Source: Mesostigma viride (lineage: Eukaryota; Streptophyta; Mesostigmatophyceae; Mesostigmatales; Mesostigmataceae). Taken from it: a stretch of 64,000 nt of DNA. The notes beneath the pieces were generated by a model that saw only the letters and a list, made by a program, of their open reading frames with translations, did no database searches and had not been told where the DNA came from. Made by a program: the position numbers and the translations under genes. Numbering within the stretch: position 1 is the stretch's first letter; the number at the start of each line of letters is the position of its first letter. The stretch spans positions 5,884,884 through 5,948,883 of the forward strand of contig RPFO01000027.1 in NCBI GenBank assembly GCA_009746045.1, given 5' to 3'. Shown here one piece after another: positions 1,270 to 63,309 of the stretch.

Positions 1270-1460
1270 GCCACCGCAAGGGGAAAACGAGGGTCCTCGG
1301 GTTGCGGCAGGGGCAGGGGAACCCGGGGCAGAAAGGTGATCTCTACCTGTTCGAGGGGATTCATAAGTGTTTGCTCAATTTCATAAATTTTACTCAATTT
1401 TTCCACATGTGATTAAATCCTTATATTTGTCAATAAAGCAGGGGTCATCCAGCCTTCAGA
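1270..1460 (+). other. Junction segment between copia fragment and satellite
   Basis: Contains in one frame FEGIHKCLLNF (about 1350-1385), which matches EEGIHRCLLNF at the end of the minus-strand gene at 6598-8553. AATAAA occurs at about 1432. In both places the coding tail runs directly into the 173-bp satellite, in opposite orientations, so this is probably the broken 3' end of a second copy of that gene. Confidence 0.5.
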
Positions 1461-2498
1461 CCATGAAAATAGACCACCCACAAAAATTGGGCTCATTCTG
1501 AGCTCAAATGGTGACATGTGACAGCATACATGTGCAGTTTTTCGTCATTTTCCCCCTTTTCTGACATGAAACAAATATGAATAGTGAACAAATGAACTCA
1601 TATCAGGCTGGATTCTTGCAGGCAGCATTTATACCATGAAAATAGACCACCCACAAAAATTGGGCTCATTCTGAACTCAAATGGTGACATGTGACAGCAT
1701 ACATGTGCAGTTTTTCGTCATTTTCCCCCTTTTCTTACATGAAACAAATATGAACAGTGGACAAATGAACTCGTATCAGGCTGGGTTCTTGCAGGCAGCA
1801 TCTAGACCATGAAAATAGACCACCCACAAAAATTGGGCTCATTCTGAGCTCAAGAGGTGACATGTGACAGCATACATGTGCAGTTTTTCGTCATTTTCCC
1901 CCTTTTCTTACATGAAACAAATATGAACAGTAAACAAATGAACTCATATCAGGCTGGGTTCTTGCAGGCAGCATCTAGACCATGAAAATAGACCACCCAC
2001 AAAAATTGGGCTCATTCTGAGCTCAAATGGTGACATGTGACAGCATACATGTGCAGTTTTTCGTCATTTTCCCCCTTTTCTTACATGAAACAAATATGAA
2101 CAGTGAACAAATGAACTCATTTCAGGCTGGATTCTTGCAGGCAGCATCTAGACCATATAAATAGACCACCCACAAAAATTGGGCTCATTCTGAGCTCAAA
2201 TGGTGACACGTGACAGCATACATGTGCAGTTTTTCGTCATTTTCTCGGTTATCTTACATGAAACAAATATGAATATTGAACAAATGAACTCAGATCAGGC
2301 TGGAAACTTGTAAGCAGCATGTAGACCATCAAAATAGACTGTTTACAGCTCAAAAGGTGACAAATGAAAGGAAAACAATGCAGTTTGATGCCATTGCCAC
2401 TGTTCTCTTGAATAAAACATTTTTGTGCGACCAAATGAAATTCATGGGCATTCATTGACAATCCTCGAGGTTCGTGCAGTCTGAATTTCGTACAACGG
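1461..2498 (+). repeat. 173-bp tandem satellite, forward array
   Basis: Units start CCATGAAAATAGACCACCCA at 1461, 1634, 1807, 1980, 2153 and 2326, an exact 173-bp spacing. Units are near-identical except the last, which decays. The same satellite in reverse orientation fills 4580-6595. The length is close to a nucleosome repeat. Confidence 0.95.
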
Positions 2499-2507
2499 TA
2501 GTATGAA

Positions 2508-3595
2508 GTTCAGACTGGACGGGCAGTCTCGGGTCTTCGATGAATGAATTCCAGTGAATGCAAGATGAATTGCCGAGACCGACCTGTTAGCAAGGAAATT
2601 CGTCCTTTTCGTATGTTCAGACTGGACGGGCAGTCTCGGGGCTTCGATGAGTGAATTCCAGTGAATGCAAGATGAATTGCCGAGACCGACCTGTTAGCAA
2701 GGAAATTCAAGTCCTTTTCGTATGTTCAGACTGGACGGGCAGTCTCGGGGCTTCGATGAGTGAATTCCAGTGAATGCAAGATGAATTGCCGAGACCGACC
2801 TGTTAGCAAGGAAATTCAAGTCCTTTTCGTATGTTCAGACTGGACGGGCAGTCTCGGGGCTTCGATGAGTGAATTCCAGTGAATGCAAGATGAATTGCCG
2901 AGACCGACCTGTTAGCAAGGAAATTCAAGTCCTTTTCGTATGTTCAGACTGGACGGGCAGTCTCGGGGCTTCGATGAGTGAATTCCAGTGAATGCAAGAT
3001 GAATTGCCGAGACCGACCTGTTAGCAAGGAAATTCAAGTCCTTTTCGTATGTTCAGACTGGACGGGCAGTCTCGGGGCTTCGATGAGTGAATTCCAGTGA
3101 ATGCAAGATGAATTGCCGAGACCGACCTGTTAGCAAGGAAATTCAAGTCCTTTTCGTATGTTCAGACTGGACGGGCAGTCTCGGGGCTTCGATGAGTGAA
3201 TTCCAGTGAATGCAAGATGAATTGCCGAGACCGACCTGTTAGCAAGGAAATTCAAGTCCTTTTCGTATGTTCAGACTGGACGGGCAGTCTCGGGGCTTCG
3301 ATGAGTGAATTCCAGTGAATGCAAGATGAATTGCCGAGACCGACCTGTTAGCAAGGAAATTCAAGTCCTTTTCGTATGTTCAGACTGGACGGGCAGTCTC
3401 GGGGCTTCGATGAGTGAATTCCAGTGAATGCAAGATGAATTGCCGAGACCGACCTGTTAGCAAGGAAATTCAAGTCCTTTTCGTATGTTCAGACTGGACG
3501 GGCAGTCTCGGGGCTTCGATGAATGAATTCCAGTGAATGCAAGATGAATTGCCGAGACCGACCTGTTAGCAAGGAAATTCAAGTCCTTTTCGTAT
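2508..3595 (+). repeat. 109-bp tandem satellite, 10 units
   Basis: GTTCAGACTGGACGGGCAG starts at 2508, 2615, 2724, 2833, 2942, 3051, 3160, 3269, 3378 and 3487 (107 bp once, otherwise 109). Internal units are almost perfectly identical, implying recent homogenisation. Each unit carries GTCTCGG and CCGAGAC about 50 bp apart, so it can fold into a weak hairpin. Confidence 0.95.
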
Positions 3596-3651
3596 GTGCG
3601 CGAAACATGAGGGGTGGGAAAACGGAATAAGCACAGAAAACGGAATCAGCG

Positions 3652-3942
3652 ATGGCGGAGAAGACGGCGATGGCACTTTTCAAATCGCATGTCATGGACG
3701 TGCACGAGCCGGAATGGTTGGTGGGGACCCCGGTATGCAAGATATTTTCAGGCCCAAACTCAGGGGAGAAGCGGTATCATGCCCATGTGACGGCGTTTAA
3801 TAAGGAGCACAACATGGTCCATGTGCTCTACACAGACGGGGACGATGAAATAGTAGGGTTAGATGAGGTGCGAGCTGCGCTTTGCGCATGCCCAGGTGTA
3901 GAGTTACCCAATCTGCCACCCGACTCGACTGCGCGAGGTTAG
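3652..3942 (+). CDS. Small ORF with Tudor-like domain
   Basis: A 96-aa intronless ORF between two satellite blocks. Residues about 24-72 read like a Tudor-type chromatin reader fold: VGTPVCKIF, then RYHAHVTAFN, then HVLYTDGDDEIVGLDEV. The aromatic and acidic YTDGDDE stretch is typical of Tudor/DDT-associated Tudor domains that bind methylated histone or DNA-associated proteins. No other domain is visible and the ORF ends soon after the domain, so it is either a small gene, an exon, or a captured gene fragment carried by the repeat block. ATG at 3652 is preceded by AGCG. Assignment rests on pattern only. Confidence 0.4.
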   Translation: MAEKTAMALFKSHVMDVHEPEWLVGTPVCKIFSGPNSGEKRYHAHVTAFNKEHNMVHVLYTDGDDEIVGLDEVRAALCACPGVELPNLPPDSTARG

Positions 3943-4579: not shown

Positions 4580-6595
4580 ATATACTGTCACATGTCACCA
4601 TTTGAGCTCAGATCGAATGAGCCCAATTTTTGTAGGTGGTCTAGTATTATGGTTTAAATGTTGCTTGCAAGAATCCAGCTTGATATGAGTTCATTTGGTC
4701 ATGATTCCTATTTGTTTCATGTAAGAAACCGGTGCAAATGGCGTAAAACTGCATATTCATACTGTCACATGTCACCATTTGAGCTCATAATGAGCCCAAT
4801 TTTTGTAGGTGGTGTAGTATTATGGTTTAAATGTTGCTTGCAAGAATCCAGCTGGATATGAGTTCATTGGTTCATGATTCCTATTTGTTTCATGTAAGAA
4901 ACCGGTGCAAATGACAAAAGGTTGCATATTTACACTGTCACATGTCACCATTTGAGCTCATAATGAGCCCAATTTTTGTAGGTGGTCTAGTATTATGGTT
5001 TAAATGTAGCTTGCAAGAATCCAGCTCGATATGAGCTCATTTGGTCATGATTCCTATTTATTTCGTGTAAGAAAACGATGAAAATGGCGTAAAACTGCAT
5101 ATTTATACTGTCACATGTCACCATTTGAGCTCATAATGAGCCCAATTTTTGTAGGTGGTGTAGTATTATGGTTTAAATGTTGCTTGCAAGAATCCTGGCA
5201 GCTCGATATGAGTTCATTTGGTCATGATTCCTATTTGTTTCATGTAAGAAACCGGTGCAAATGACGAAAAGCTGCATATTTACACTGTCACATGTCACCA
5301 TTTGAGCTCAGAATGAGCCCAATTTTTGTGGGTGGTCTATTTTCATGGTCTAGATGCTGCTTGCAAGAATCCAGCCTGAAATGAGTTCATTTGTTCACTA
5401 TTCATATTTGTTTCATGTCAGAAAAGGGGGAAAATGACGAAAAACTGCACATGTATGCTGTCACATGTCACCATTTGAGCTCATAATGAGCCCAATTTTT
5501 GAGGGTGGTCTATTTTCATGGTATAAATGCTGCCTGCAAGAATCCAGCCTGATATGAGTTCATTTGTTCACTATTCATATTTGTTTCATGTCAGAAAAGG
5601 GGGAAAATGACGAAAAACTGCACATGTATGCTGTCACATGTCACCATTTGAGCTCAGAATGAGCCCAATTTTTGTGGGTGGTCTATTTTCATGGTCTACA
5701 TGCTGCCTGCAAGAATCCAGCCTGAAATGAGTTCATTTGTCCACTATTCATATTTGTTTCATGTAAGAAAAGGGGGAAAATGACGAAAAACTGCACATGT
5801 ATGCTGTCACATGTCACCATTTGAGCTCAGAATGAGCCCAATTTTTGTGGGTGGTCTATTTTCATGGTATAGATGCTGCCTGCAAGAATCCAGCCTGAAA
5901 TGAGTTCATTTGTCCACTATTCATATTTGTTTCATGTAAGAAAAGGGGGAAAATGACGAAAAACTGCACATGTATGCTGTCACATGTCACCATTTGAGCT
6001 CAGAATGAGCCCAATTTTTGTGGGTGGTCTATTTTCATGGTCTACATGCTGCCTGCAAGAATCCAGCCTGAAATGAGTTCATTTGTCCACTATTCATATT
6101 TGTTTCATGTCAGAAAAGGGGGAAAATGACGAAAAACTGCACATGTATGCTGTCACATGTCACCATTTGAGCTCATAATGAGCCCAATTTTTGTGGGTGG
6201 TCTATTTTCATGGTCTAGATGCTGCCTGCAAGAATCCAGCCTGAAATGAGTTCATTTGTCCACTATTCATATTTGTTTCATGTAAGAAAAGGGGGAAAAT
6301 GACGAAAAACTGCACATGTATGCTGTCACATGTCACCATTTGAGCTCAGAATGAGCCCAATTTTTGTGGGTGGTCTATTTTCATGGTCTACATGCTGCCT
6401 GCAAGAATCCAGCCTGAAATGAGTTCATTTGTCCACTATTCATATTTGTTTCATGTAAGTAAAGGGGGGAAATGACGAAAAACTGCACATGTATGCTGTC
6501 ACATGTCACCATTTGAGCTCAGAATGAGCCCAATTTTCGTGGGTGGTCTATTTTCATGGTCTACATGCTGCCTGCAACAGTCCAGCTTTAGGTAC
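4580..6595 (-). repeat. 173-bp satellite, inverted array, 12 units
   Basis: TGTCACCATTTGAGCTCA occurs at 4593, 4770, 4943, 5116, 5293, 5466, 5639, 5812, 5985, 6158, 6331 and 6504. Spacing is 173, with three of 177. It is the reverse complement of the array at 1461-2498. Divergent units (GTAGGTGGT, CCGGTGCAAA variants) lie on the left and homogeneous ones on the right, as expected for an array homogenised on one side. Confidence 0.95.
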
Positions 6596-8553: not shown

Positions 8554-8655
8554 GTTAAATAGTGCCGGAACCTTTTGCCCACTGAGGCAAATCGGGCCGG
8601 AACACTATTTTGCCCGGAATAACCACTTCCGAGCACCCAAGTTAATTCGGCCGAT

Positions 8656-9714
8656 ACACCGCGCACGCAAGGGGCCAGTGCAAGCACATGTACATACACC
8701 ATGCACGCAAGGGCCGGCATGCACAGAAACGTACATACACCGCGCACGCAAGGGGCTGCTGCACACACACGTACACACACCATGCACGCACGGGGCGGCT
8801 GCACACACACGTACATCCACTGCGCACGCACGGGGCCGGCGACTGCACACACATGTACATAAACCATGCACGCAAGGGGCGGCTGCACACACATGTACAT
8901 CCACCGCGCACGCAAGGGGCGAGTGCAAACACATGTACATACACCGCGCACGCAAGGACAAGGATGCACACACATGTACATACACCGCGCACGCAAGGGG
9001 CGGCTGCACACGCACGTACATACACCGCGCACGCAAGGGGCGGCTGCACACACACGTACATACACCGCGCACGCACGGGGCCAGTGCAAGCACATGTACA
9101 TACACCATGCACGCAAGGGGCGGCTGCACACACATGTACATACACCGCGCACGCAAGGGGCGAGTGCAAACACATGTACATACACCGCGCACGCAAGGGG
9201 CAACTGCCCGCACATGTACATCCACCGCGCACGCAAGGGGCGGCTGCACACACATGTACACACACCATGCACGCAAGGACAAGGATGCACACACATGTAC
9301 ACACACCATGCACGCAAGGGGCGGCTGCACACACACGTACACACACCGCGCACGCAAGGGGCGAGTGCAAACACATGTACATACACCATGCACGCAAGGA
9401 CAAGGATGCACACACATGTACACACACCATGCACGCAAGGGGCGGCTGCACACACACGTACATACACAATGCACGGTTGGGGCGACGGCACTCACATGTA
9501 CATACACCATGCACGCAAGGACAAGGATGCACACACATGTACATACACCGCGCACGCAAGGGGCGGCTGCACACACACGTACATACACCGCGCACGCAAG
9601 GGGCGAGTGCGCACACACGTACATCCACCGCGCACGCAAGGGGCGGCTGCACACACACGTACATACACCGCGCACGCAATGGGCGAGTGCAAACACATGT
9701 ACATACACCGCGCA
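8656..9714. repeat. 40-bp minisatellite
   Basis: About 26 units of a 40-bp motif such as CGCGCACGCAAGGGGCGGCT followed by GCACACACATGTACATACAC. Variants alternate GCGAGTGCAAACACATG, GACAAGGATGCACACA and CCAGTGCAAGCACATG. The unit has almost no stop codons and is not a multiple of 3, so ORFs up to about 500 codons are open in several frames on both strands. These are not genes. It continues after element 1 at 23379-23547. Confidence 0.95.
9710..9714. repeat. Target-site duplication of element 1 (left), GCGCA
   Basis: GCGCA here and at 23379-23383 flank the two LTRs exactly. Removing the element restores an uninterrupted 40-bp minisatellite unit. Confidence 0.9.
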
Positions 9715-10358
9715 AGTTAGCATATTGGTGATGCAATATGCTAAGCATATCATACTTGAAGTGGCCTTTCCAACGCCGTGCTAGACGCCTCATTTGGACA
9801 AGGAACTTGAGAGTTATCAAGTCCCGAAGTAATGCCGCCGGACGCTACAGCAGTACCAGGACTAAGGACACGTGAGGGACAGGGCACGTGGCAGTGTTGG
9901 GTGAACCATCACAAGTTACGTGTCACAGGACCGACTGTCACTAGGAGGTACTGTGGTCAATATTGGTTGATGGTACCAAGAATGTCACTGGACTTCAGGA
10001 CTGGCAGTCCTGCAGGCCTGGGATGGACGGGTACTTGTCATGACGGATAAATCCAGAGCGTTACTGTCATTCATGGAAGGACAGACGTCCTGGATTGATG
10101 CAACCAAGGAAATTGACAGTGGCGGACCTGCCAAGGCGTGCAAGGCCTGGCAGCAATGGTGAGACCTAGAAAGGCTCGGACACAGCAGTGGCCAAGCGTC
10201 TTTTCCCAACACCGTCCGTGGGTGCTGCCGCCTCAGGCTAGTGACCACAGGGTAGTGAGGCAACTGTGGTAAAGGTTAAAAGCCGCTGGTTGAAACCATG
10301 GCTCCATTCATCACATCTTGGGAAGACCAGAAACTCACTGATCCGCGTTCATCTAAAT
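9715..10358 (+). repeat. Element 1 5' LTR
   Basis: Starts AGTTAGC and ends CTAAAT, not the usual TG..CA. The first 30 bp fold into a perfect hairpin, TTAGCATATTG / CAATATGCTAA (9718-9745). Downstream box CTTTCCAACG..ACGCCTCATTTGG (about 9767-9800) is shared with the LTR of element 2. The LTR carries the promoter and polyadenylation functions by family knowledge; no TATA box is obvious. Confidence 0.9.
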
Positions 10359-10376
10359 CGTATTACAGTCTGGTCG
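10359..10376 (+). other. Probable primer-binding site region
   Basis: CGTATTACAGTCTGG directly follows the LTR. Element 2 has CGTATTACAATCTTC and element 3 CAAATTACAACCAGTC at the same place, so ATTACA just after the LTR is conserved. The priming tRNA is not identified. Confidence 0.45.
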
Positions 10377-10382
10377 ACGGAT

Positions 10383-11347
10383 ATGTCGAATTCGGACTCT
10401 GAAGCTAGGACAAACACCTTTGCGCGTGCAGCAACGGTAGCGGCGTCCAGTCCAGTACCCGCAGGAGGGCACGAGGACTCGGGGAAGTGCGCCGAAATAT
10501 TCGTGCGGTGTCGGCACCGGGCGAGTACGTCCGAGGAGCAGCCGAGCAGCTGCTGAGATTTCGCGAGGACCTCGCGGAAATCATCAGAAGGCTGCCAGCG
10601 TCTTGGCGGGCTGGCCACACAAACGCATTCGCGTTTGAGCAGGTGGTCACTCTGCTTTTGCAGATAATTGCCATAAGCCTCGGGGGTGCCCGAGAGATAA
10701 ACGACCTTGTCGCCAATCTCCGCCTTGGGGACGACTACACCGGCGTGCCAAACGTGGTGCAGGTCGCCCGGGACAGGCGGGAGGCCATCGTTCGTGGCAG
10801 TACGCAGGCGTTGGTGGCAGAGTGCCAGAATCTGGCGCACTCTGTCTTAGAGTTGACCAGAGGCGCTGCTGATCGTGTCTTCATTACTCTTAATCCCTTC
10901 TCCATCTACACTAGTCGGGATACTCCACATTCTCGCCGAGAGTTAAACCAGCTAAGTTTGACTGTCGACGTGGTTGGCGGTCGAGAGGTCTCAGCCGACG
11001 ACGCCTTCTACGACTTCGTAGATCAGCCAGCAGGGGCGGTAGTACAGCCGGCCCAGAGGCGTCACGAGGGCGACGGCTCTCAGGAGGGCCGTGAGCAGGC
11101 GCAGCGGGACGAGCTTAATCGCTACCACATTGACGACAACGTTGGTTTAGGTGAGGCCCATTTGTTGAGGTGGGGGCGTTCTCGCTGGATACGTGATTAC
11201 GCGTATGGTTTGAGGCTTCCGGTGGTTATTAGGCCTGTGCCTACTCACGACGACCAGGGGCAGCCATTGAATCCGGTGGAGGGACCGTTCCACGAGCCAG
11301 CACCTGCACCGGTTGCAGGAGAAGCTTCGTCTGAAAACGAGGCTTGA
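10383..11347 (+). CDS. Element 1 ORF1, unknown protein preceding gag
   Basis: Unrecognised protein of about 320 aa. ATG at 10383 gives MSNSDSEARTNTFARAA, then a one-base frame change near 10485 leads into the long frame (RRNIRAVSAPGEYVRGAAEQLLRF and onward) ending at 11347. The middle is helix-rich (RFREDLAEIIRRL, FEQVVTLLLQIIAISL). A segment VFITLNPFSIYTSR matches the FLTILTNPLRIVTRR region in ORF1 of element 2, and the C-terminus is acidic and Pro-rich. Elements 2 and 3 carry an equivalent ORF between the 5' LTR and gag, so it is a constant component of the family. No zinc knuckle, protease or enzyme motif is visible. A capsid-like or RNA-binding accessory role is only a guess. Confidence 0.7.
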
Positions 11348-11415
11348 GGGGGTGGAGGATAGGTGGAGAGTTTGCTGTTTTCTTGTTGCAAAGTTGGTCG
11401 CAGCCATTGTATATA

Positions 11416-12735
11416 ATGCCTAGGAGGGCAAGCCGGGGTGCGGCGACATTCGAGGAGCAACGGGAGCGAACGGCAGAGGAGGACATCGCCAGAGAGGAAG
11501 GGGAGGCGATGGAGGAGAGGGGCGTGGAGGCGCCAGCTGGGCAACCTATCCCAGAGATGGACCCCAGGCCGGGAGAACACACAAGCGGTGGCGTGATGGG
11601 CAAGCTGAGGCGGAGAAAGTCAAGCGTGCCAGGCGACCTACGGATGCAGTGGTGCTCACAACGCCTGGTGAGGAGGACGCCATCGTCACCCCAGGTGTGC
11701 GTGCTGCAAAGCAAGCTGCTGTTCACGATAGGGTGTCTGGTATGTTGCCCGAGCGTTTGGAGGCTAGGATTGACCCTCCCCAGGCACCACCAGTGCGTGT
11801 GGGGAGTGTGTTGCCTGGCACCCGTCCATTTTCTGATGCTGTGACAGTCATGAATGGGCAGAAAGCGCTCAACCCTCCCTGAAGCAAGACAACCTGGATA
11901 AATGGCTTGATGACATGAAGCTAGTTGTGGGCTCTGTCGCAGCAGGTGTGGATATTGTCAGGGTGTTTCACTCTTCCACCGCAAACAAGGGTCGTCTGAA
12001 AGGGTCAATGACATGGCTAGGCATGCTCTGAAGAGGGGCACACTTGGCTGCAGTTCCTGGATGACATCAAGGAGGAGTTTTCTGACAGGGTTCACAATCT
12101 CACCATGGAAAAGAAGAGAGAATTTGATGAGTTTGAGATCAAGGGTGAGGTGGCTGCTGAGCTGGCCAGGTTTGAGTTGATCGTGGAGGCAGGCAAGAAG
12201 CAGGGCTTCAGTGTGACAGTCAGGGCAGCAGCAGACCACTTCTTGATAAGATGGGCTTGTCAGAGGAAGGTAGGGCTACTGCTAGGCAGCTCTGTGATCT
12301 CACTGATGGCACCTGGGGGGCTCTGAAGCGTGTGATACTAAACTTCAGGACCCGGGTCCCTACCTGCAAGGGTATCAGTTCTCAGGGAGGGTCAGCGTCT
12401 CAGGCTAGCCAGGGCAAGAACCGTACCCCATCTGGGACACGGTATGGCAGCAGGAGAAGGAAGCAGGCCCAGAAGGAGCAGAACCAGGGTGGTGGAGGGG
12501 TCAGCAGGGGAACCAGAATCAGGGGAACCAGTCTGGCAACCGTAACAGCCATCAGCAGGGTAAGGGTGGTGGCCAGGGGCAGAATAACAATCAGGCCTCA
12601 GGCAACCAGAACAAGCAGGACAGCAAGGCCCCAGGGGGAGGGTCTGGCAAGAGCAAGTGTTTTGCTTGTGGCAAGGAAGGTCACTGGAAGAGGGATTGCC
12701 CAAACAAGAAGAAGGGGCAGTCTGATCAGAAGTGA
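11416..12735 (+). pseudogene. Element 1 gag with CCHC zinc knuckle, frameshifted
   Basis: Gag packages retrotransposon RNA in virus-like particles. ATG at 11416 starts MPRRASRGAATFEEQRERTA. The frame changes near 11640 (to VLTTPGEEDAIVTPGVRAA) and again after about 11880, so the coding region is broken in several places. The end is clear: Gly/Gln/Asn-rich basic region, then the knuckle CFACGKEGHWKRDC (CX2CX4HX4C, about 12657-12700), then basic tail and TGA at 12733-12735. The gag of element 2, intact in one frame, shows what the uninterrupted protein looks like. Frameshifts in homopolymers could be sequencing errors given identical LTRs. Confidence 0.8.
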
Positions 12736-12738
12736 CTA

Positions 12739-15700
12739 GTGAAGCAGTCCCGTGTACATAGTGAGACACCCTGTGGGGACACAGCTTCACATGTAAATAA
12801 ATCTGGGCAGGGTGCCACCTCTGATCAGCACCAGGGGTGTACTGATGTTCTCATTCCACAAGATTGCATGCATGCTGCAGCACAACAATCCCCTCAACTG
12901 TCAACAGGTGGAGGGTCCCCAGACAGGGTTGGCTCTGGGAGCCTAGATGCTCTGCTGGGAGGGTCTGCTGGGTCCTCTGGATCCAAGATGCAGAAGGTGG
13001 ATGTTGCGTCCTCACACGCAGGGCCCGTCCAGGCGTCTTCCCAGGTGCGTAATCTGGCTAGGCAACTGAGCTACACGGATGCTGGACGCAGGCTGCACAA
13101 TATCTTTGGTCACACAGCCATGGCTGAGATGTTTGGTTGGAAGATTGGAGATGAGCCACTGAGGGAAGCATGCAGGGCTGCAGCTGAGCAATGTGCTTGT
13201 AAGGAGAATGCTGCCAAGAAGCCAAGGTCCCATGCTAGGGAGCCTGCCAGGGAGAAGGGGGACATCCAGGTAGACGTCCAGCATATCAGGGGCTTATACA
13301 TTTTGGTGGCAGTGGACAGATTTAGCAGGTACAGGCTGCTCCAGATTCTGCCAGATATGAAGGGGAATACCCTGCTGCTGGGCTTGCAGACTCTCTTACC
13401 AGGCTTTGGGGTGTACAAGACAGTACAGGCTGATATTCAGTTTGAGTGCCTACTGTCACAGCAGGAGCAACTGCCATGCAAGCTGCTGGTCACGCCCAGG
13501 GAGAGCCATGGACAGCAAGGTGCTGTGGAGAGATCCATCAGGGAGGTCAAGACCGTAGTGCTGGCAGAACCTAAGGTGCCACTGGTAGCATCTGCTTTGG
13601 AGAGGGCAGTGTGGACCAGGCAGGTGGAAGAACAGTTGAACCTCAGAATAAACTACTATTATGACGGGGTGGCTGTCAATCCTGTAGCACTGCAGTTTGG
13701 ATGCTAGCCCAGGAAGTGGTCCAGGCATGCTTGAGGAAAGCAGACAGGGTGTTTGCTCAGTTGAGACGCAAGGATAGGGGCTGGAATGTGCTGAGGCCTC
13801 AGGTGGGGCTGAAGGTCAGAATGTGGAAGGAGCCATCAATGCAGGGCAAGAGGGGCAAGTGGCAGAACGGGGTGGTGACCTGTGTGGAAGATGCCAATCG
13901 TTCCTGCCTTGTGGCCTTGGAGAGTAATCCCAGGCATGTTTACAGGTTGAGCTGGGCCAACGTCAAGGAACGCAAGCCACATGCAATCTGGCCTGCAGAC
14001 GGGCCTGGACCCCAGTGTTGGCTGGAGGGCCAGGTTAAGGACCAGGTAGTTGATGTGCCTGTCACTGACGTGGGAGGTGGCTATCCCTCTGATGATGATG
14101 AGGTGCAGGAGGCAACTGCATCACCTGTGGTGGAGCCAACGGGGGCTGGGCCTGCACCAGGGTCCAAGAGGCCACTCATGGCAGACATTGTCCGGTCGCT
14201 CATGTTCAACAAGCACAAGGATCCCAAGGTATCTAAGTTGACTGAATGGGGTTCTTGCTGGGCTGCTACCCTAGAAGTGGATACTAACTCAGAGGTGTCT
14301 ATCATCAGGGTGGAGGATGCTCAGGGCCTGAAGGTGAATAAGGCTGGCTGCAGGGCAGTGAGTGACTTTACGGGCACTGTAACAATGAAGATCCTAGGGG
14401 AAGTGACTGTGCCTATCCTGGGTGTCCCCACTGCGTTCTGTGTGGTGGAAGGGTACCAGGGGCCTGCCATTTTGGGCCAGAATTTCTTGTGCATGCCAGG
14501 AGTGACTCTGTCAGCAGATGAGCTTGCACTAGAAGGTCATGGCAGTTTGCCCCTCCAGAGATATCACTACTCCAAGGGTCTAGCTGTGGCAGTCAAGGCT
14601 GTGAAGGGGCAGCAGAGTGTGGGGCCTGAAGGCAAGGAGCCCATTGCTGAGGACTTGTTGATCATCCCAACCACCCTAGATCCACGGGACTTGGGGGTGC
14701 ACAAGTACCAGATTGCTGGTCACAGTCCTATTTCCTGGCACCAGTTGGTAGAGTTGATGCAAAGCCCCAAGATGGCTAAGGCATGGATTCTAGGGTTTGT
14801 CTCCAGTGGGCATGACTGGATAGTGTCTAACTGTGCTGAGCCTGTGGATGAGTTGCCCAGGGAGCATCAGTTGCTAAGGCTCTTGTTTGTGCTCAAGCTG
14901 AAGGAGATAGACGGTGTGCAGGTGCCACATGTGAGGCCAGTTGTGACTGAGTACCATGGCACGGGGGAGCTGACAGATGAGGAGTTGTATACGCCTGGGA
15001 TGCTGCATGATACCTGGAGGATTGTTCTGTGTATATATCTGTCTTTCCTGGTCAAGGGCATTGCGTACAGCTCTGTGCTGATTGATTTCAAGAGGGCTTT
15101 TCTCAAGGTGATGTGGAGCAGGCCAAGGAGACGTGGCGTGATATCCCTCCCTTCTTTGTAACAGTGCCCAAGGTGTGGAGAGCAGAGATCAAGTCAAAAT
15201 ATCTCAGAATACTCAAGGGTTTGGAGGGTCTCAGGTCCAGCCCTATCATCTGGAGAAAGAGCCTGGAAAAGTTTCTGAAAACTCACTGTGGCTTTACTGT
15301 GTCTCCAGTTGATCCTTGCTTGTTCCAGAGTACTCATGAAGGGTTGCCTGTGTTTGCATCTCTGCATGGAGATGACCTGCACCTTTTAGGGCCTCCTGAG
15401 TGGGTGGATTCAGTACTGTCCAAGATCCAGAAGAGGTTTGAGTTAGGAAAGGTCCAGCACATGAAGCAGGATGAGCCCATGGTGTTTTGTGGAATGCAGG
15501 CCACGCTGATCAAGAGGGCAGGTACTTGGTTTATCAAGATGGAGGGTGGCAACAACTATCCTCAGCAGATCATTGATGCCCTCCAGCAGCCCATTACCCA
15601 GGCCAGGTGTGCCACAATCAGGGGAATGTTGGCTTGGCTAGCTAGCATTTGTGCCCCAGATTTGTTGGTGCTGAGTAGGCTCACAGATGCTCAGCTGGTT

Positions 15701-16273
15701 GAGGTAGGGGCAGAGCAGGTGGTTGAGTCTGTCAGGAGCTCACCTCCACTCATACTGGCAGCTGTGGACTTGTACAAACCACTCAACATGGTGCTTTTTG
15801 TGGACAGTTCCATGGACAGCAGGAAGGTGACGGATGTCAGGGGTAGGGCAGCAGCACTCATTACACTACAACAGGAGCACACTTCTCTGGTCAGCTGGTA
15901 CAGTAGGTTACAGAACAGGGTGACGCCCAGCAGTGACATTGCTGAGTGCAGGGCAATATGTGAGGGGCTACACACTGCTCTTTACCTCAGGGAGTTATTC
16001 TACCAGCTCTGTCAGGTAGCTTCCTGTAGCTTGCAGCTGCACACACTGGTCAAGACAGACAGCATGGGCATGGTGCAGTTTGTGCACAGACAGCTCGCCA
16101 GGAGCAGGGATCTGGATTATTTGTTGCTGAAGGAGATGTCTTACCTTGCTCATCTTGAACATGTGCCTGGTGTTGACAACCCAGCAGACGCCCTCACCAA
16201 GCTGGAGAGCAAGGCTGAGCTACAATACCCTGTGCTCAAAGGGCTCATGGACCCCTTTTCTGGTGGGACTTGA
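12739..16273 (+). pseudogene. Element 1 pol: integrase - protease - RT - RNase H
   Basis: Frame opens right after the gag stop with no ATG. Integrase: zinc-binding H/H in RLHNIFGHTAM and C/C in CACKEN; catalytic D in IQVDVQ, D in VQADIQFE, E in GAVERSIREVK; C-terminal SH3-like region (VRMWKEPSMQGKRGKW). Protease-like domain follows: LEVDTNSEVSII (D-T-N, 14280-14288) and AILGQNFL (about 14467-14490). RT: LIDFKRAFL, LKGLEGLRSSPIIW, LHGDDLHLL (GDD at 15367-15375). RNase H: LFVDSSMD, SSDIAECRAI, VKTDSMGM, NPADALTKL, stop at 16273. Single-base frameshifts at about 13703 and 15112 split it into three frames. Ty1/copia pol normally has protease before integrase; here no retropepsin motif precedes the integrase. 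Confidence 0.88.
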
Positions 16274-16681
16274 AGTCCAGCCTTTGCCAGTTGGTGGCTG
16301 ACCAGTGCTGTTGTCCCCAGGGGGGAGGGCAACAGGTAGCCTACCTGTCACCAAGCAGGTAGAAGGCTCAACAGGAGCAAGCTCTTCCTGTAAAGGATTA
16401 GCACAGTGGGATGCCTTTGGCCTCGGGCAGTTAGGCCATGACAGGGCAGGCCATGTTGAGAGTTCTTCCAGGTTGTTTGTATATATCTCTCTTGTTTAGT
16501 TTTCTTTAGCTGTGAATAAGTGACAACCTTGGATATTATGGTGTTGTAACCTGACAGTTGGGCCTTGCTGGTGCAGGCTGGTCCACTGGGAACACTCAAC
16601 ATTGGTTTTGGTGGATATTCTATAATAAACCATAATCATGTTGTATGCCAATCTCTCTTGTTGTCTGTCATGTGACCAGGT
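16274..16681 (+). other. Element 1 3' noncoding region, left part
   Basis: No coding sequence. It continues at 22180 after the DIRS insertion. The DIRS junction falls in CCAGGTTT / AAGTTTAACCTGG, which would have formed a short inverted repeat before insertion. Confidence 0.7.
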
Positions 16682-16818
16682 TTCTATTAACCGTGGAACT
16701 CCAGGGTAACCAGACTCTTTATTAAAACAATGAGTGGAGCACATACAAAAGGCAGGCCACATCCCGGCCGCCGATGCTCATGGGAACACTTATTGCTTGG
16801 CAAAGGCTAGCCTTACCC
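16682..16818 (-). repeat. DIRS split direct repeat A1
   Basis: TTCTATTAACCGTGGAACTC through GCCTTACCC; same sequence at 17277-17412. Confidence 0.9.
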
Positions 16819-16843
16819 CCAAACACGCAGGGAGGGTGGGGGG

Positions 16844-17276
16844 GAAAAGAAAAGAGGCCGACCTTAGCTAGGTGGGTTTGTTTTTGTCCTTTTTTGCGTG
16901 TCATGCGGCCTTGGCCCGGACGGCATTTTTTCGCCACGCAAATGTTGCGTCTGAACAAATGACGCCATGTGGCGTTCTAATTGCCGGCAGCTTACGTAAG
17001 GCTGCCGGGGCTATTAGGTCACATATTGCGTGAGAGAAAGAATCTAGATCTAGTTAATCACTACGCCATGAGCCAAGAAACCTAGACAGTGGCAGGTTTA
17101 TATCTCAACGTAGCTCCTGCCACCTGGCCAAGAAAAACTGGCCAAAGCTTTGGCCACGACTGATCCGGATCAGGCCGCACCGGCCTCAAAAGGTTTGTCA
17201 CGTGAACCCAATAACCTAGCTATAGCGGCTACCCTTCCATCTCACTATAAAGAAACTATGTTCAGAGAACCACGAT
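16844..17276 (-). repeat. DIRS split direct repeat B1
   Basis: GAAAAGAAAAGAGGCCGACC through GAACCACGAT; same at 21746-22179 with one extra A. It abuts A2 directly, the expected circle-junction arrangement. Contains GCCGGCAGC..GCTGCCGG inverted repeat at about 16983-17009. Confidence 0.9.
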
Positions 17277-17412
17277 TCTATTAACCGTGGAACTCCAGGG
17301 TAACCAGACTCTTTATTAAAACAATGAGTGGAGCACATACAAAAGGCAGGCCACATCCCGGCCGCCGATGCTCATGGGAACACTTATTGCTTGGCAAAGG
17401 CTAGCCTTACCC
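17277..17412 (-). repeat. DIRS split direct repeat A2
   Basis: Second copy of A; lies between B1 and the 3' end of the pol ORF. Confidence 0.9.
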
Positions 17413-17484
17413 TTATATCCCTCCCTGGCGATCCATGCCAGGGGCAAAGAACCTAGCATAATGACAGAGAAATGAACAACCAAA

Positions 17485-20400
17485 TTAGGTGGAGGGCAAT
17501 TTCAAAATAGCCCGCCAGGCCCGAGGGGGGCAGGCGGCCATGGCCCGAAGAATAACCTCAGGCAGCTGCACCTCCAAACTGCGGTGCAAGCCCACATAAT
17601 GGGCAACCGTGGAGCTGCTAAGCCAGCGCCCCCGGCCCTGGATGTCCCCCATGCTGCGACCCGCGAGGAAATCGTGAGTGGCACCTCCATGCCGCAGCCC
17701 GTGAATGGTGAAAATCTGGGCGACCCCCAAGGCCTGACTCGCAGCCTGCCAAATGCGCCGGAATTGCGGGTAGGTGAAAGGGAACACGGCCTCCCAAGCG
17801 TGCTTACCCGCGATGCAGTGACGGAGGATGGTTTCAGACATCACATCTTCTACCACCACTGACTGAGTCTTGCCCTTAGAGGTCTTGGTAGACCTCAGCA
17901 GTAGGGCGCCCCGTTGAGCCGGCCCAAGCCGAACGTCAGGCTGGAGGCGCACATGGCCAACACGGAGGTTCAGCGCCTCCGAGATTCGCAGGTAATGGCG
18001 GAACACGATGACAACCAGCAGGCCCGCAAGGCGCTGACCTTGCATGACCATCGTGCTGGCAAGTGCAAACGCCGCCTCCCATGGAATGGGAGGAGGGGCA
18101 CGGGGGGGCACAAGTGTTTTCCACCCAGCGAGGACGCCACGGGCCAAGTCCCACCGCTTCACCATACCGGGATAATAAAGTTGCAACCCCATCAAGGCAT
18201 TGACACACACTTGGCGGCTGTACCCCCGAAAATGAGCCCAGGCGACATACGCACAAAATGTCTCCTCAAGGGTGTCAGCTCGTGACGATGACCCGTCCGC
18301 CCGCCCACCAGCCTCCCACCAAGTCAAGAGGGAATCAAGACCACGACGGTAGGCCAGCAAAGTAGCCGGCTTTACTTTCCCCTCTAGCAATGGAAGGTAG
18401 CTAACAGGTGCAGGGGGCCCCGGGTTAGGATGGATGCCTTCCGCGGTCAGGTCGCGCACCCAGCCTGCCAAGAAAGTCGCCATGGATTGGCCGCGAGAAA
18501 CGCCATCGGCTGGTTGAAGTGCACTCGGCGTCCACACCCACTGGGAACGACTCCCCGTGGCGAGGGTCAGCGCGCACAAGCGGCGGCACTGCTTGTTGAG
18601 CTTGTGGGATGAGGACCGCCCCTTAGCCAAGCAGCCCAACGCCGCGGTGGAGTCCACCAACCTCACCACCCGCTTGCCTCGGTTTGCCAAGCTGCGCGCA
18701 CTCCTCTCCACGCCCTTCACTGCAGCCCGCACCTCCTTCTCGTTGATGTGCATCCCCGGATCCCGCCAACGACTCCGGACCCCAACCCGCCATTGCTGGC
18801 TAGTGATTGCTTGTTGCGCCCGCGCGCTCAGTGGCCTAGGGCCAGCGTAGGCCACCTCACTTGGTATGAGCAAAGTCGGGTACCCCCGCACCTCTCGTGC
18901 CCTCGCCAGCTCCGTCACATCGCCCGGCTCCATGGTTGCGTACACGACACCTTGCCCGTAGGTGGACGCGTCAGATGCAACCACCTCACGGGCCAAAGGT
19001 GCGCTTCGGTCAACCCTTAGCATGGGAGCCAAGGCCAGGGCACACTCTAACTCCTCCCGCACCCCGGCCCACAGCACCCAGGATCGCTGCCCCCACCCTT
19101 GCAGGCTGATGAATTTGAAACATTGCTGCCAAATGGACAAGCAGCTGCGGCTTAACATCTGCAGCCACAACCACCGCCCCAAGACGGCAGCCAGCCCCTC
19201 GGCCGTAGCTCGGCCTCGAGTGAGTATAGCCTGCGTGTGGGCGATCACAAGGTTGAGCTGCTTGACCGTTGGTTCCAGCACGCCGTTCCGTCGGTGCACC
19301 ACCCCTAGGGCTTCTAGCTCGTCCCCTTCCAGGCTCGCCATCTTAGTCTTCTCCTTAGACGGCACAAGGTTGTTAGGGAGGTAGCCTTCCTCAATAGCGC
19401 GCGTGATGAGCTGGTTCACCGCCTCGCAGGTCCGCCCGTTGCTGGCCACCAAGTCATCAATAGTGATGGACAGCATGGGGGCAGGGGGGTTTTCCAGGTC
19501 AATCTGAAGCTCCCCGGCGCGCTCCTCCTTGTACTCGATGGCCAAGCGCAGTGGCTGGCCACACTCGTCGCGCACCAAGGTGAGCTCACCTGCGCTTGAG
19601 AGGTAGTTGACCTGGCGCCTCGGATCCAGGGCACCGGTCATGTAGAGCACCATCTCATGGATGGCCTCCCCCAGCGCCACCGCATGGGAATGTCCCATGG
19701 CCAGCACCTTGAGCACGGGCCACACCTTCCGCCTGGGCCCTGCCAGACCTACGCTAGTCGACCACACACTAGGAAGCCCTTGGTAGTCCCACCACCACTC
19801 GGGCACCTCGATGGAATAGTAGTATGACACGAGGTCGCTCTTGGCGCAGTAGCACCAGCCTTTGATGTAGACCTCCACGAGGATGCCCAGGTGGGGTAGC
19901 AGGATCTTGGGGGGGTCCACCCACAGCAGGTTGCCCAGCTTCCTGTTGACGATGAACCGAAGCTCACCCACCCCCTTGGCCACTCCAAAGCAGCCATCCA
20001 CCCACTTGGGCCGCCTCTCCCGGAACGCCACCATGCCCACGCCCGCTGCCCGGCTCATGAGCTTGCCCCATTCAGCCATGGAGCATCCCCGGCTGGGCTT
20101 GGGCACATTCCAATACTTTGCGCTCGCCACGACCGCTGGCTTGATGCAGTTCTCTTCGCTGGCATATATCTCCCGCCAGCTCGGCCGCATAGCCAACAGG
20201 TCGAGCAGCCGTGCCTTCCCCGCCACCTCCGCCTTTGGTAGACTCACCGCGTCCGCGCGCAGTTGTTCATACTTATTCTGCTTCCCATATATTGCATCAG
20301 CACCTTCTTGCTCCTGGCCTGTCGCAACGCCCCCTACGCGGCGACTGTGCCAGGTGCAGTGCCTCTTGACCCTCGCAAGGGCCTCCTCCCTCCCCTTAGA

Positions 20401-20739
20401 GCACGCCCCTCTAGGGTTAGGAGGAGGGTCTTGCCCCCCTCCCCACAGCCAATTAAGCCAACGCACTACCTTGCATTGCAGTGTGTACTCGCGGTGGCGG
20501 CGCGTGGCACGCTGTCGCCGGCGTGCCGATCTCACCCTGCCCCACGCGGTGTACGCTGGCCTAAGTGGGTATGGCAGCGGGAAAAGGGAGCGGTCCCGCT
20601 GGGATTCTATTTCCCTACTTGTTGAGCCTTGCTGAGCTTGTCCAAGAGGATGGCAGTTTGGAGAGCTGCCTTGACAGCCGGGGTGGCTGACAGTGCAGCC
20701 TCCTCCCCCAATGGCAGGAGGTGGCTGGCCACCTTCCAC
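17485..20739 (-). CDS. DIRS pol: RT - RNase H - 2A-like - tyrosine recombinase
   Basis: One 1,084-codon frame; the first about 150 codons overlap the gag ORF and may not be the true N-terminus. RT: LRFIVNRKLGNLL (about residue 260), AKSDLVSYYYSI with catalytic D (about 303), LSITIDDLVASN with DD (about 425). RNase H: VVASDASTYGQG (about 585), HINEKEVRAAV (about 664), RLVDSTAALG (about 695), QPADGVSRG (about 742). Then GIHPNPGP at residues 768-775, a 2A-like ribosome-skipping motif. Tyrosine recombinase: RISEALNLRVGHV (R, about 918), HGLRHGGATH (H..R, about 1015), and VAHYVGLH (nucleophile Y, about 1043). All catalytic positions are present, so the element may be active. The recombinase inserts the circular cDNA. 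Confidence 0.92.
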   Translation of the reverse strand: MEGGQPPPAIGGGGCTVSHPGCQGSSPNCHPLGQAQQGSTSREIESQRDRSLFPLPYPLRPAYTAWGRVRSARRRQRATRRHREYTLQCKVVRWLNWLWGGGQDPPPNPRGACSKGREEALARVKRHCTWHSRRVGGVATGQEQEGADAIYGKQNKYEQLRADAVSLPKAEVAGKARLLDLLAMRPSWREIYASEENCIKPAVVASAKYWNVPKPSRGCSMAEWGKLMSRAAGVGMVAFRERRPKWVDGCFGVAKGVGELRFIVNRKLGNLLWVDPPKILLPHLGILVEVYIKGWCYCAKSDLVSYYYSIEVPEWWWDYQGLPSVWSTSVGLAGPRRKVWPVLKVLAMGHSHAVALGEAIHEMVLYMTGALDPRRQVNYLSSAGELTLVRDECGQPLRLAIEYKEERAGELQIDLENPPAPMLSITIDDLVASNGRTCEAVNQLITRAIEEGYLPNNLVPSKEKTKMASLEGDELEALGVVHRRNGVLEPTVKQLNLVIAHTQAILTRGRATAEGLAAVLGRWLWLQMLSRSCLSIWQQCFKFISLQGWGQRSWVLWAGVREELECALALAPMLRVDRSAPLAREVVASDASTYGQGVVYATMEPGDVTELARAREVRGYPTLLIPSEVAYAGPRPLSARAQQAITSQQWRVGVRSRWRDPGMHINEKEVRAAVKGVERSARSLANRGKRVVRLVDSTAALGCLAKGRSSSHKLNKQCRRLCALTLATGSRSQWVWTPSALQPADGVSRGQSMATFLAGWVRDLTAEGIHPNPGPPAPVSYLPLLEGKVKPATLLAYRRGLDSLLTWWEAGGRADGSSSRADTLEETFCAYVAWAHFRGYSRQVCVNALMGLQLYYPGMVKRWDLARGVLAGWKTLVPPRAPPPIPWEAAFALASTMVMQGQRLAGLLVVIVFRHYLRISEALNLRVGHVRLQPDVRLGPAQRGALLLRSTKTSKGKTQSVVVEDVMSETILRHCIAGKHAWEAVFPFTYPQFRRIWQAASQALGVAQIFTIHGLRHGGATHDFLAGRSMGDIQGRGRWLSSSTVAHYVGLHRSLEVQLPEVILRAMAACPPRAWRAILKLPST

Positions 20740-21658
20740 CCCCCCCTCCTTGCCCTTCCACCTGCAGCAAGGCCGCCACCACCCTCATTAGGTACTCCAT
20801 GCCCACAAGCTCCCCGGCTGCTGAGCCCAGCTCCTTGAGAAGGGTGTCCATGGCCAATGCAATGTTCATGACAATTTTCCTGTTCTCCATGTTCCGCCAA
20901 TTTCCAGGCTTTACCGTCATGACCCACGACCGGATTCCCATCCCATTGTCGCTGGCGTCCTCCAACACCCCCGGCAGCACCCGCTCCGAAACCCGATATT
21001 TCACGCTCTTGGCTCGGCTTGGCAGCGCCACCCCTTTCGAGGCCTTGAAGTGGCTTCCCGCCCCCTCCATTCCTCCCAGCGCTGCCTTCAAACCTTGCAT
21101 GAATTTCTCGGCTGCGACCTCCCCCTCCTCGTCCTCCTCGTCGTCCTGATTTTCGGTTTCCGGAGGTGCCCCAACGAATGTCGCCAACCTCGCCCTCATT
21201 TCCTTTCCGACAGCCCCCCCACCTGCCGAAACCTTGGCCGCGCCTTTCGGCTTGGCCATTTTTCGCTGCGCAGGTGTCGTTGGTGGCAGCGCCTGATCCT
21301 CCTCGTCCGCCGCGAGATCTGCCACGGCCAGCAGTTTTGCCACCAACGTTCCGTTTGGGTCACGTGCGTCCAACACGTCGCCAACATCAACGTGATCGGC
21401 CAGCAACTGCACGACAGACTTCAGCTGGCTCGAGCTCCACGAGCTGGCGTCCGTCACCCAGTCCTCGGCACCGAAGACCTGCTCGACTGCCCCCACCGCC
21501 TCTGCGGGGCTGATGCACTTGGCGAGCAGAGTGGCGAGCTGCTTCTTTTTGGCGCTGAAGGCGACTGGCGCGTGACTGGCGGCAGCAGCCCGCGGTGTGG
21601 GCGTCCCGTCCTCCCCGCGCGCTGCCTGCCCTCCTGTAGCTTTGCGCCCCTTCGGCAT
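20607..21658 (-). CDS. DIRS gag-like ORF
   Basis: First ORF of the DIRS element, ATG at 21658 (MPKGRKATGGQAARGEDG). It encodes an Ala-rich N-terminus, a probable coiled region (KKKQLATLLAKCISPAEAV), an acidic stretch (ENQDDEEDEEGEVAAEKF) and a conserved-looking core (SVKYRVSERVLPGVLED, GIRSWVMTVKPGNW, NRKIVMNIALAMDTLLKEL). Near 20760 a Gly-rich homopolymer run allows a frame change. The alternate frame ends plausibly (ALSATPAVKAALQTAILLDK, stop at 20607), while the straight frame ends at 20615. No zinc knuckle is visible. The position 5' of RT-RH-YR fits the gag-equivalent of DIRS elements. Confidence 0.75.
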
Positions 21659-21745
21659 TGCTGCTCAGGGCCAAAAATGGCTCCGACAGTACAGGTTCGT
21701 CAAACCAGAGGTTCGTTTCCCCTGGCTTGCTGTCGCCGCCCTCGT

Positions 21746-22179
21746 GAAAAGAAAAGAGGCCGACCTTAGCTAGGTGGGTTTGTTTTTGTCCTTTTTTGCG
21801 TGTCATGCGGCCTTGGCCCGGACGGCATTTTTTCGCCACGCAAATGTTGCGTCTGAACAAATGACGCCATGTGGCGTTCTAATTGCCGGCAGCTTACGTA
21901 AGGCTGCCGGGGCTATTAGGTCACATATTGCGTGAGAGAAAGAATCTAGATCTAGTTAATCACTACGCCATGAGCCAAGAAACCTAGACAGTGGCAGGTT
22001 TATATCTCAACGTAGCTCCTGCCACCTGGCCAAGAAAAAACTGGCCAAAGCTTTGGCCACGACTGATCCGGATCAGGCCGCACCGGCCTCAAAAGGTTTG
22101 TCACGTGAACCCAATAACCTAGCTATAGCGGCTACCCTTCCATCTCACTATAAAGAAACTATGTTCAGAGAACCACGAT
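21746..22179 (-). repeat. DIRS split direct repeat B2 (5' end of the element)
   Basis: Matches 16844-17276 with a 1-nt A-run difference. Precedes the gag-like ORF in sense orientation, so it should hold the promoter. Confidence 0.9.
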
Positions 22180-22734
22180 AAGTTTAACCTGGGGTTCTGG
22201 GGTAGGGTTCGATTCCCTAGTTGAGCCACAGCCTGGTATGTATGACTCCTGGGCTTTAACACCCAGTGATGACATGGGCTCCCCATCAAGCAGTGGCACA
22301 GTGGTGTTGAAGTGGTTTCCATTGGTGAACATTTGGATGGATGATGCCTGGAACGCTCGGGGCGGGCGCCATGAAACGGGCGCCAGTGATAACTGGGAAG
22401 ACCAGGAACTCACTGTAATACGTTTCCTGTAGTCAGGGCCTCTCATTCAGATATCCAGGATATGTTGCCTAAGGAATATTCAATATCCTCCTTTAAGCCC
22501 AAGCCAAGGTACAGTTGCAAAAGAAAGGGTTGGGGATGACCTGCAGGTCAAGTTAATGATCAGATGGCAGGGTTGAACCATAGATCCCTAAAAGAGGATA
22601 CCATTAAGGTGGCAAAAGGGGTGCTCATGAGGCTTATTATAAGTCCAGGGTAACCAGGTGTCCATTTCACAAGGCAGCAAGGAATGGGTTGGTCATGGTG
22701 TGAAGCTTGCAGCTCCAAAACAAGAAAGGGTTGG
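22180..22734 (+). other. Element 1 3' noncoding region, right part, with B-box-like motif and PPT
   Basis: GGTTCGATTCC at 22206-22216 matches the Pol III B-box/tRNA T-arm consensus and sits in a GGG..CCC stem. Element 3 has the same motif in the same orientation at a similar distance from its 3' LTR (519 versus 546 bp). The last bases, CAAGAAAGGGTTGG just before the LTR, are a polypurine tract that would prime plus-strand synthesis. Confidence 0.65.
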
Positions 22735-23378
22735 AGTTAGCATATTGGTGATGCAATATGCTAAGCATATCATACTTGAAGTGGCCTTTCCAACGCCGTG
22801 CTAGACGCCTCATTTGGACAAGGAACTTGAGAGTTATCAAGTCCCGAAGTAATGCCGCCGGACGCTACAGCAGTACCAGGACTAAGGACACGTGAGGGAC
22901 AGGGCACGTGGCAGTGTTGGGTGAACCATCACAAGTTACGTGTCACAGGACCGACTGTCACTAGGAGGTACTGTGGTCAATATTGGTTGATGGTACCAAG
23001 AATGTCACTGGACTTCAGGACTGGCAGTCCTGCAGGCCTGGGATGGACGGGTACTTGTCATGACGGATAAATCCAGAGCGTTACTGTCATTCATGGAAGG
23101 ACAGACGTCCTGGATTGATGCAACCAAGGAAATTGACAGTGGCGGACCTGCCAAGGCGTGCAAGGCCTGGCAGCAATGGTGAGACCTAGAAAGGCTCGGA
23201 CACAGCAGTGGCCAAGCGTCTTTTCCCAACACCGTCCGTGGGTGCTGCCGCCTCAGGCTAGTGACCACAGGGTAGTGAGGCAACTGTGGTAAAGGTTAAA
23301 AGCCGCTGGTTGAAACCATGGCTCCATTCATCACATCTTGGGAAGACCAGAAACTCACTGATCCGCGTTCATCTAAAT
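22735..23378 (+). repeat. Element 1 3' LTR
   Basis: Same 644 bp as the 5' LTR at a constant offset of 13,020. I found no mismatch. Followed by TSD GCGCA and the minisatellite. Confidence 0.92.
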
Positions 23379-48229: not shown

Positions 48230-48257
48230 CGTATTACAATCTTCGTAACAACAAAAA

Positions 48258-57011: not shown

Positions 57012-57037
57012 GAAAGGAAAGTGCCAAGTGTTACCAC

Positions 57038-57955: not shown

Positions 57956-58047
57956 TCACCACCGACGAGCTCCTCTCGTCGTCAACGCTGCACACCGCAA
58001 CCGGCAACGACCCTCCTGGCCGTTCCGCTGAGACTGGTTGTAATTTG

Positions 58048-58742: not shown

Positions 58743-58747
58743 CCAGG

Positions 58748-62088: not shown

Positions 62089-62272
62089 CACCGCAAGGGG
62101 AAAAACGAGGGTCCTCGGGTTGCGGCAGGGGCAGGGGAACCGGGCAGAAGGTGATTCTACCTGTTCGAGGGGATTCATAAGTGTTTGCTCAATTCATAAA
62201 TTTTACTCAATTTTTCCACATGTGATTAAATCCTTATATTTGTCAATAAGCAGGGGTCATCCAGCCTTCAGA

Positions 62273-63300: not shown

Positions 63301-63309
63301 GTGTATGAA

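Follow-up and report, generated by a model that had tools for sequence, protein, structure and literature searches.

A copia-related family of long terminal repeat retrotransposons in Mesostigma viride with a retropepsin-like domain between integrase and reverse transcriptase

A stretch of 64,000 nucleotides from the streptophyte alga Mesostigma viride (contig RPFO01000027.1, positions 5,884,884 to 5,948,883 of the forward strand; hereafter, the window) carries three diverged long terminal repeat (LTR) retrotransposons, here called A, B, and C, whose pol pieces are ∼35-61% identical. All three share one order of parts: an open reading frame (ORF1), gag, an in-frame UGA, integrase, a retropepsin-like domain, a copia-type reverse transcriptase (RT), and RNase H. 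A preliminary description of the window had proposed that an order of this kind was common to the three elements, and this was borne out both there and in copies elsewhere in the genome. We consider it probable that they belong to a recently mobile Ty1/copia-related lineage with the pol order integrase, retropepsin-like protease, RT, and RNase H, and in our reading the protease of this copia-related lineage was either replaced or moved. The lineage departs from copia in its domain order and in its protease, and agrees with it in its RT.

Pol order in the window and in the host genome

ORF1, gag, and pol lie in interrupted frames in all three window copies. Element A, on the plus strand, has its integrase (zinc finger and DDE core, 38-42% identical to that of B) at 12736-13704, followed by a C-terminal SH3/Agenet-like domain that aligns to B and C (13794-13976), the retropepsin-like domain (14217-14573), and RT with RNase H (14721-16270), with one frame break inside RT. 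Element B, on the minus strand, has integrase and the retropepsin-like domain in one frame (53748-55757, with the domain at 53871-54212) and RT with RNase H in a second part (52165-53811). On the plus strand again, the integrase and SH3-like domain of C (58741-59641, with a frame break near 59126) precede its retropepsin-like domain (59894-60238) and the N-terminal half of RT (60386-60895), the remainder of which is broken. Identity among the three elements is 44%-53% in the retropepsin-like domain, 50%-58% in the integrase SH3 domain, and 57%-61% at the start of RT.

Profile searches, proposed beforehand as a check, did match rve, RVT_2, and RVT_3, all below the Pfam cut-off. For rve the E-values were 0.0038, 0.16, and 0.0014 in A, B, and C; RVT_2 was seen among the window pieces in A only (E = 3.3e-4); and the RNase H assignment draws on RVT_3 (E = 0.083 in A and 0.032 in the related protein P0006) together with profile comparison. 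Agenet was matched, also below cut-off, in B (E = 0.002), with no match on its homologue in A. The RT of B and C is linked to that of A by 54%-61% identity; the RT-RNase H part of B, with no Pfam match of its own, is 54% identical to A and was compared to copia with hhalign. Relatives of C and A also match RVT_2 (proteins P0003-P0005 and locus L040), the best reaching 30.7 bits (P0005) against a cut-off of 31.6. When compared with the RT-RNase H of four canonical copia elements of the same genome, that of the lineage gave an hhalign probability of 96.7% (E = 3.6e-10), which upholds the earlier assignment of both domains to the Ty1/copia type. As a control, six canonical copia regions were fetched and the frames of five of them scanned with the same Pfam library: all five read Pol_BBD (protease), rve, SH3, and RVT_2, the frame of the sixth (L006) being broken. 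The copia order is gag, protease, integrase, RT, and RNase H, whereas here the protease-like domain lies between integrase and RT; nor does integrase follow RNase H, as it does in gypsy.

Copies were sought in the 439,911,974-bp assembly, which consists of 2243 contigs. All 150 scored places for the C protease domain (of 4648 first-look candidates) were 98%-100% identical to the query, and all 150 for the B domain (of 4706 candidates) were 100% identical, so that B and C each have at least 150 near-identical places in the host genome. By eye, the commonest open frames among the matches listed are of 989 and 1196 codons. Pol is a single 1196-codon frame with all motifs in the four B loci fetched, and integrase, protease, and RT form a single 989-codon frame in four of the six C loci. 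In L040, a C copy, this frame carries rve at residues 208-263, Agenet at 399-425, DTN at 547, and RVT_2 at 733-930. In L055, an unaltered B copy, the 1196-codon frame carries the zinc finger at 139-176, the D/D/E residues at 200, 253, and 283, the SH3 motif at 374, DTN at 533, LGQNFL at 597, RT motifs at 797 and 892, and RNase H motifs at 1037-1163. The domain was also found within open frames of 14,246 and 3,551 codons (G000:C1989:933451-933900 and G000:C924:9079-9525, respectively).

The order could in principle reflect rearranged or chimeric copies, or an assembly artifact. The window copies are nested and broken, and the two ends of the window (1-3209 and 60826-63999) repeat each other, being 97% identical with small indels; this indicates either a tandem duplication of ∼60.8 kb or an assembly fault. 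Against an artifactual order, however, integrase, the DTN domain, and RT lie in one frame at each of ten loci outside the window (six C, four B), five of them with a target duplication of their own; 300 scored places carry the domain; and P0009, from another data set although perhaps from the same organism, has the domain directly before RT. We regard such an origin as very improbable. A second C element (L042) overlaps the left edge of the window.

The LTRs bear on how recently these copies moved. Both LTRs were in range in four of the six C loci, and in all four they are 99.2%-100% identical and accompanied by a 5-bp target duplication (CATGG, CCGTC, CACCC, and ACGAG). The LTRs of L055 are 99.3% identical, with target duplication CTTAC; in L056 (B), no repeat pair was seen in the fetched locus. 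The many near-identical copies, the LTR identity, and the duplications together mean that the family is abundant and recently mobile; as the preliminary description had argued, it is not a rearranged single copy, the order being present in single frames at the B and C loci of the host genome.

Within the window, the LTR pairs of A and B were found by self-comparison. Element A (9715-23378, plus strand) is bounded by two 644-bp LTRs (9715-10358 and 22735-23378), which are 100% identical, start with AGTTAG and end with CTAAAT, and it is flanked by the 5-bp target duplication GCGCA. Element B (50718-58742, minus strand) has LTRs at ∼50718-51413 and 58048-58742, 98.7% identical, and is inserted in C, which it splits, with target duplication CCAGG. 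The 5' LTR of C lies at 47614-48229 (plus strand); its ends could be read, and LTR pairs are known from copies of the same subfamily. The right limit first given for C, 62088, was not confirmed, since a search of 60800-62600 turned up no 3' LTR to match and the RT/RNase H end of C is broken in the window. The LTRs start with AGTTA and end with AACT or AAAT, so that their termini, fixed by the target duplications, are AG...AT in A and AG...CT in B and C. The usual termini of copia LTRs, although not strictly kept, are TG...CA.

In the protein database, the RT-RNase H query (A6) found relatives in nine of 7994 scored candidates, the protease-centered query (A7) in one of 7994, and the integrase-protease query (A1) in none of 7993; the viral contigs scanned held no relative. 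P0006 (jgi/Mesvir1) shares 98.8% of 244 aligned residues with window A, and EukProt proteins labeled Prorocentrum lima, Alexandrium andersonii, and Lingulodinium polyedra match as well. One of the dinoflagellate-labeled proteins, P0009, agrees with A at 99.6% of 241 residues, which suggests contamination, although transfer is also possible; for this reason none of the dinoflagellate-labeled matches (P0004, P0008, P0009, and P0010) was taken to represent an independent host.

The retropepsin-like domain

The domain contains the motif pair DTN[AS]..S ... [LI]LGQNFL, with DTN at 14280-14288 in A, 54147-54155 in B, and 59954-59962 in C. The distance from Asp to Gly is 65 residues in all three elements, and the second motif has the hydrophobic-hydrophobic-Gly pattern of retropepsins. 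Within the window the pair is seen exactly three times, once in each element, and 2000 shuffles of the residues in the 56 stop-free stretches (150 codons or more) never produced it; the pattern was written post hoc. The Pfam family gag-asp_proteas spans the whole domain in two of the three copies (positions 14-90 of 92 in A, E = 0.13; 14-91 of 92 in B, E = 0.12). When the profile of the three copies was searched against PDB, all 13 matches (E up to 10) were proteases, the best with E = 0.0041; eight are named HIV-1 protease and five only "protease". The domain has evolved under purifying selection (dN 0.45-0.55, dS 2.65-3.32, with dS near saturation). By motif, spacing, and weak profile match, although not by structure, we identify it as a putative retropepsin.

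Several observations weigh against this view of pol. The Pfam protease scores, 12.5-13.4 bits, are under the curated cut-off of 28.2, and C has no match of its own. The 13 PDB matches are not independent, being variants of nearly the same protein; 12 are double chains fused to a length of 203 residues, and the sole single chain has E = 0.1. The matched region runs from the flap to the C terminus and leaves out DTN, and with a wider profile three of four matches were proteases and one was unrelated. The structure prediction proposed beforehand gave two poor AlphaFold models (predicted local distance difference test scores of 43.6 and 36.7, from three-sequence alignments), and a Foldseek search with the first of them yielded nothing at or below E = 0.001. 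The third residue of the active site is N and not G. In the full B pol frame, Pfam recognizes Agenet alone, with neither RVT_2 nor rve, and B is therefore assigned through its identity to A and C together with profile comparison. Finally, RNase H is encoded in the -1 frame in five of the six fetched C loci, overlapping the RT frame by 142 bases (by 196 in L038); a single frame covers RT and RNase H in A and B. The overlap contains a run of seven Gs in L037, L038, and L040, and in L042 the RT frame continues and ends in a foreign insertion. Since these copies are abundant, slippage or help from other copies (trans-complementation) is possible.

Other PDB searches gave little: no match with the RT profile, three unrelated weak matches with P0005, and four weak matches to retroviral integrase or pol with the integrase-protease profile A1 (E = 0.17-0.86). 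The domain might be something other than a retropepsin, a different beta-rich linker between integrase and RT that resembles one by chance. Such a linker would agree with the lack of a confident structure, with the sub-threshold Pfam scores, and with an hhalign probability of only 0.5% to the copia proteases of the host. It sits poorly with the PDB matches to proteases, 13 of 13 with one profile and three of four with the other, and with a motif pair kept at constant spacing in three diverged copies and absent from the shuffles, even for a post hoc pattern. We judge it quite improbable.

The active site is DTN in place of D[ST]G in A, B, and C. One could therefore suppose a retropepsin fold that has given up catalysis and serves as a structural or dimerization module, with processing by a host protease or none needed. 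That none of the three elements keeps D[ST]G speaks for such a loss, whereas the retention of D and T in all three and the strong purifying selection on the domain speak against it. So do the canonical copia elements of the same genome, in which the site is DSA in four of five (two of them near-identical to each other) and DTG in one. For two of the DSA kinds, many places share an equal RVT_2 score; with DSA in other abundant elements, the third residue is not fixed in this genome. As an observation on those elements themselves, frames L001-L004 have DSA where DSG would be usual. Nor did another protease motif appear in three full copies: the forward frames of L040, L041, and L055 that reach 100 codons contained no hydrophobic-D[ST]G[AST] with further retropepsin positions. 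The linker from the gag stop to the integrase zinc finger, 117-148 residues long, is not conserved among the three elements (best BLAST E = 0.44), and Pfam found no protease in it (B and C linkers; that of A within the integrase piece). The earlier claim that the only retropepsin-like domain lies between integrase and RT thus survived in the copies tested, and a loss of catalysis seems to us unlikely.

A further alternative concerns origin: the protease could be the ancestral copia protease, moved within the element, and not a replacement of the retroviral or gypsy type. The rest of pol is of copia type, and divergence could hide a copia origin, the comparison of proteases being with the host copia only. 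In that comparison, though, the domain had no profile match to the copia proteases; Pol_BBD, the copia-type protease family, was matched in none of the A, B, and C pieces or full frames tested, and the weak matches that exist are to gag-asp_proteas and to proteases of the HIV type. A simple move is possible, if on balance doubtful. Replacement of the ancestral copia protease appears somewhat more likely, as judged from sequence, because the domain resembles the retroviral/gag-asp_proteas type a little and the host copia protease not at all.

Translation, priming, and surrounding sequence

ORF1 lies at 10409-11344 in A (plus strand; no Pfam match above cut-off), at 57314-57955 in B (minus strand; no Pfam match), and at 48258-49043 in C (plus strand), where it encodes 262 amino acids and is present in five of the six fetched loci. 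The gag of C occupies 49171-50283 (plus strand), has a CCHC knuckle (zf-CCHC, E = 0.0052), and ends at the UGA at 50281-50283; the knuckle was recognized by Pfam also in the full B gag and by eye in A and B. In A, gag and pol share a frame and are separated by a single in-frame UGA at 12733-12735 (plus strand; context AAG UGA CUA G). The end of gag reads CAG UGA CUG in window C and in all six fetched C loci, and pol continues in the gag frame in five of the six, L038 shifting frame just after. The B copies L055 and L056 have CAU UGA CUU, also in frame; the window copy of B differs at this junction. A UGA with CU after it is a leaky stop, which makes readthrough the likeliest predicted route to Gag-Pol. 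A programmed frameshift between gag and pol was considered and dropped, as other copies show the in-frame UGA.

We propose that the elements work as follows. A promoter in the LTR would give rise to one genomic RNA, from which ORF1 and gag would be translated, and part of the ribosomes would pass the UGA to make Gag-Pol. The mid-Pol protease, with a catalytic DTN, would dimerize, excise itself, and part integrase from RT-RNase H. The cDNA would then integrate, giving the 5-bp target duplications and the LTR ends AG...CT or AG...AT. As to priming, the bases at the primer-binding-site position of A (10359-10367, plus strand) are CGTATTACA, the same nine as in C (48230-48238), and those after the 5' LTR of B are CAAATTACA. 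Neither starts with TGG, and thus the usual site for a tRNA 3' end is absent. ATTACA is conserved right after the 5' LTR in window A and C and in L037, L038, L040, L041, and L055, and perhaps an internal tRNA site serves as primer.

Inside A lies a DIRS-like tyrosine-recombinase element (16844-22179, minus strand; Phage_integrase, E = 6.5e-7) that is not part of the family, with 434-bp direct repeats (16844-17276 and 21746-22179) that are 99.8% identical. Its minus-strand frame 17485-20739 holds an RT part and a 2A-like HPNPGP stretch, both recognized by eye only. Elsewhere in the window, a long minus-strand frame over tandem repeats (36211-39531) matches RTX calcium-binding repeats (E = 6.8e-11), possibly through low complexity. 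There are 173-bp repeat units in inverted orientation at 1450-2339 and 5199-6586, up to 95% alike, and separate tandem arrays of 109-bp, 40-bp, and 8-bp units at 2493-3664, 8599-9746, and 30978-31353. The window held no Rfam match, no tRNA, and no occurrence of a dinoflagellate spliced-leader pattern.

Relation to known LTR superfamilies

LTR superfamilies are distinguished by the order of domains in pol. A survey of 13,863 mostly plant LTR elements recognizes two such orders (PMC6317226), and the order found here differs from both, which bears out within that scope the earlier statement that it matches no known superfamily. The extra ORF before gag is real; as a distinguishing mark it counts for less, since the same survey reports extra ORFs as frequent in some lineages of plant LTR elements (PMC6317226). 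It also states that elements of unexpected order were always removed as likely incorrectly predicted (PMC6317226), and similar elements may have been filtered out elsewhere. The word copia is absent from the main text of both Mesostigma genome papers (PMC6947507, PMC7027972), and no element with the order integrase-protease-RT was found in the open-licence literature, represented in part by titles and abstract openings.

Abundant and with long open frames, the family is a counter-example to a fixed pol order, and suggests that copia-like elements keep a less rigid order of parts than is commonly assumed. It would mean that the protease can change position and that a retropepsin may function with Asn where Gly is near-universal, and it offers a direct test of whether DTN supports catalysis. 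Tentatively, and with somewhat less than even confidence that all of its parts hold together, we would go further and see in it a superfamily-level lineage, sister to copia or deeply inside it, that lost the ancestral protease and acquired, between integrase and RT, a retropepsin of retroviral or gypsy type with DTN; such a lineage would use a UGA readthrough switch and LTR ends other than TG/CA, and would have been recently mobile in a streptophyte alga, in hundreds of copies or more.

Among known systems, the closest likeness is to Ty1/copia (Pseudoviridae), in the type of RT and RNase H, integrase before RT, 5-bp duplications, LTRs, and the CCHC knuckle of gag. Unlike in copia, where the protease lies between gag and integrase, the domain here comes after integrase, the active site is DTN, the LTRs end in AG...CT or AG...AT, there is an extra 5' ORF, and gag and pol are split by an in-frame UGA. 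The lineage resembles Ty3/gypsy elements and retroviruses in its protease-like domain, which carries a motif of the LGxNFL type and is weakly similar by profile, but here integrase is not last and RT is of the RVT_2 type. Gmr1-like gypsy elements also have a changed pol order with integrase before RT; they differ in having a gypsy-type RT and a protease that is still ahead of integrase. In gammaretroviruses, gag and pol likewise lie in one frame with a single stop between them, although that stop is UAG, and here it would be a UGA followed by CU that is read through.

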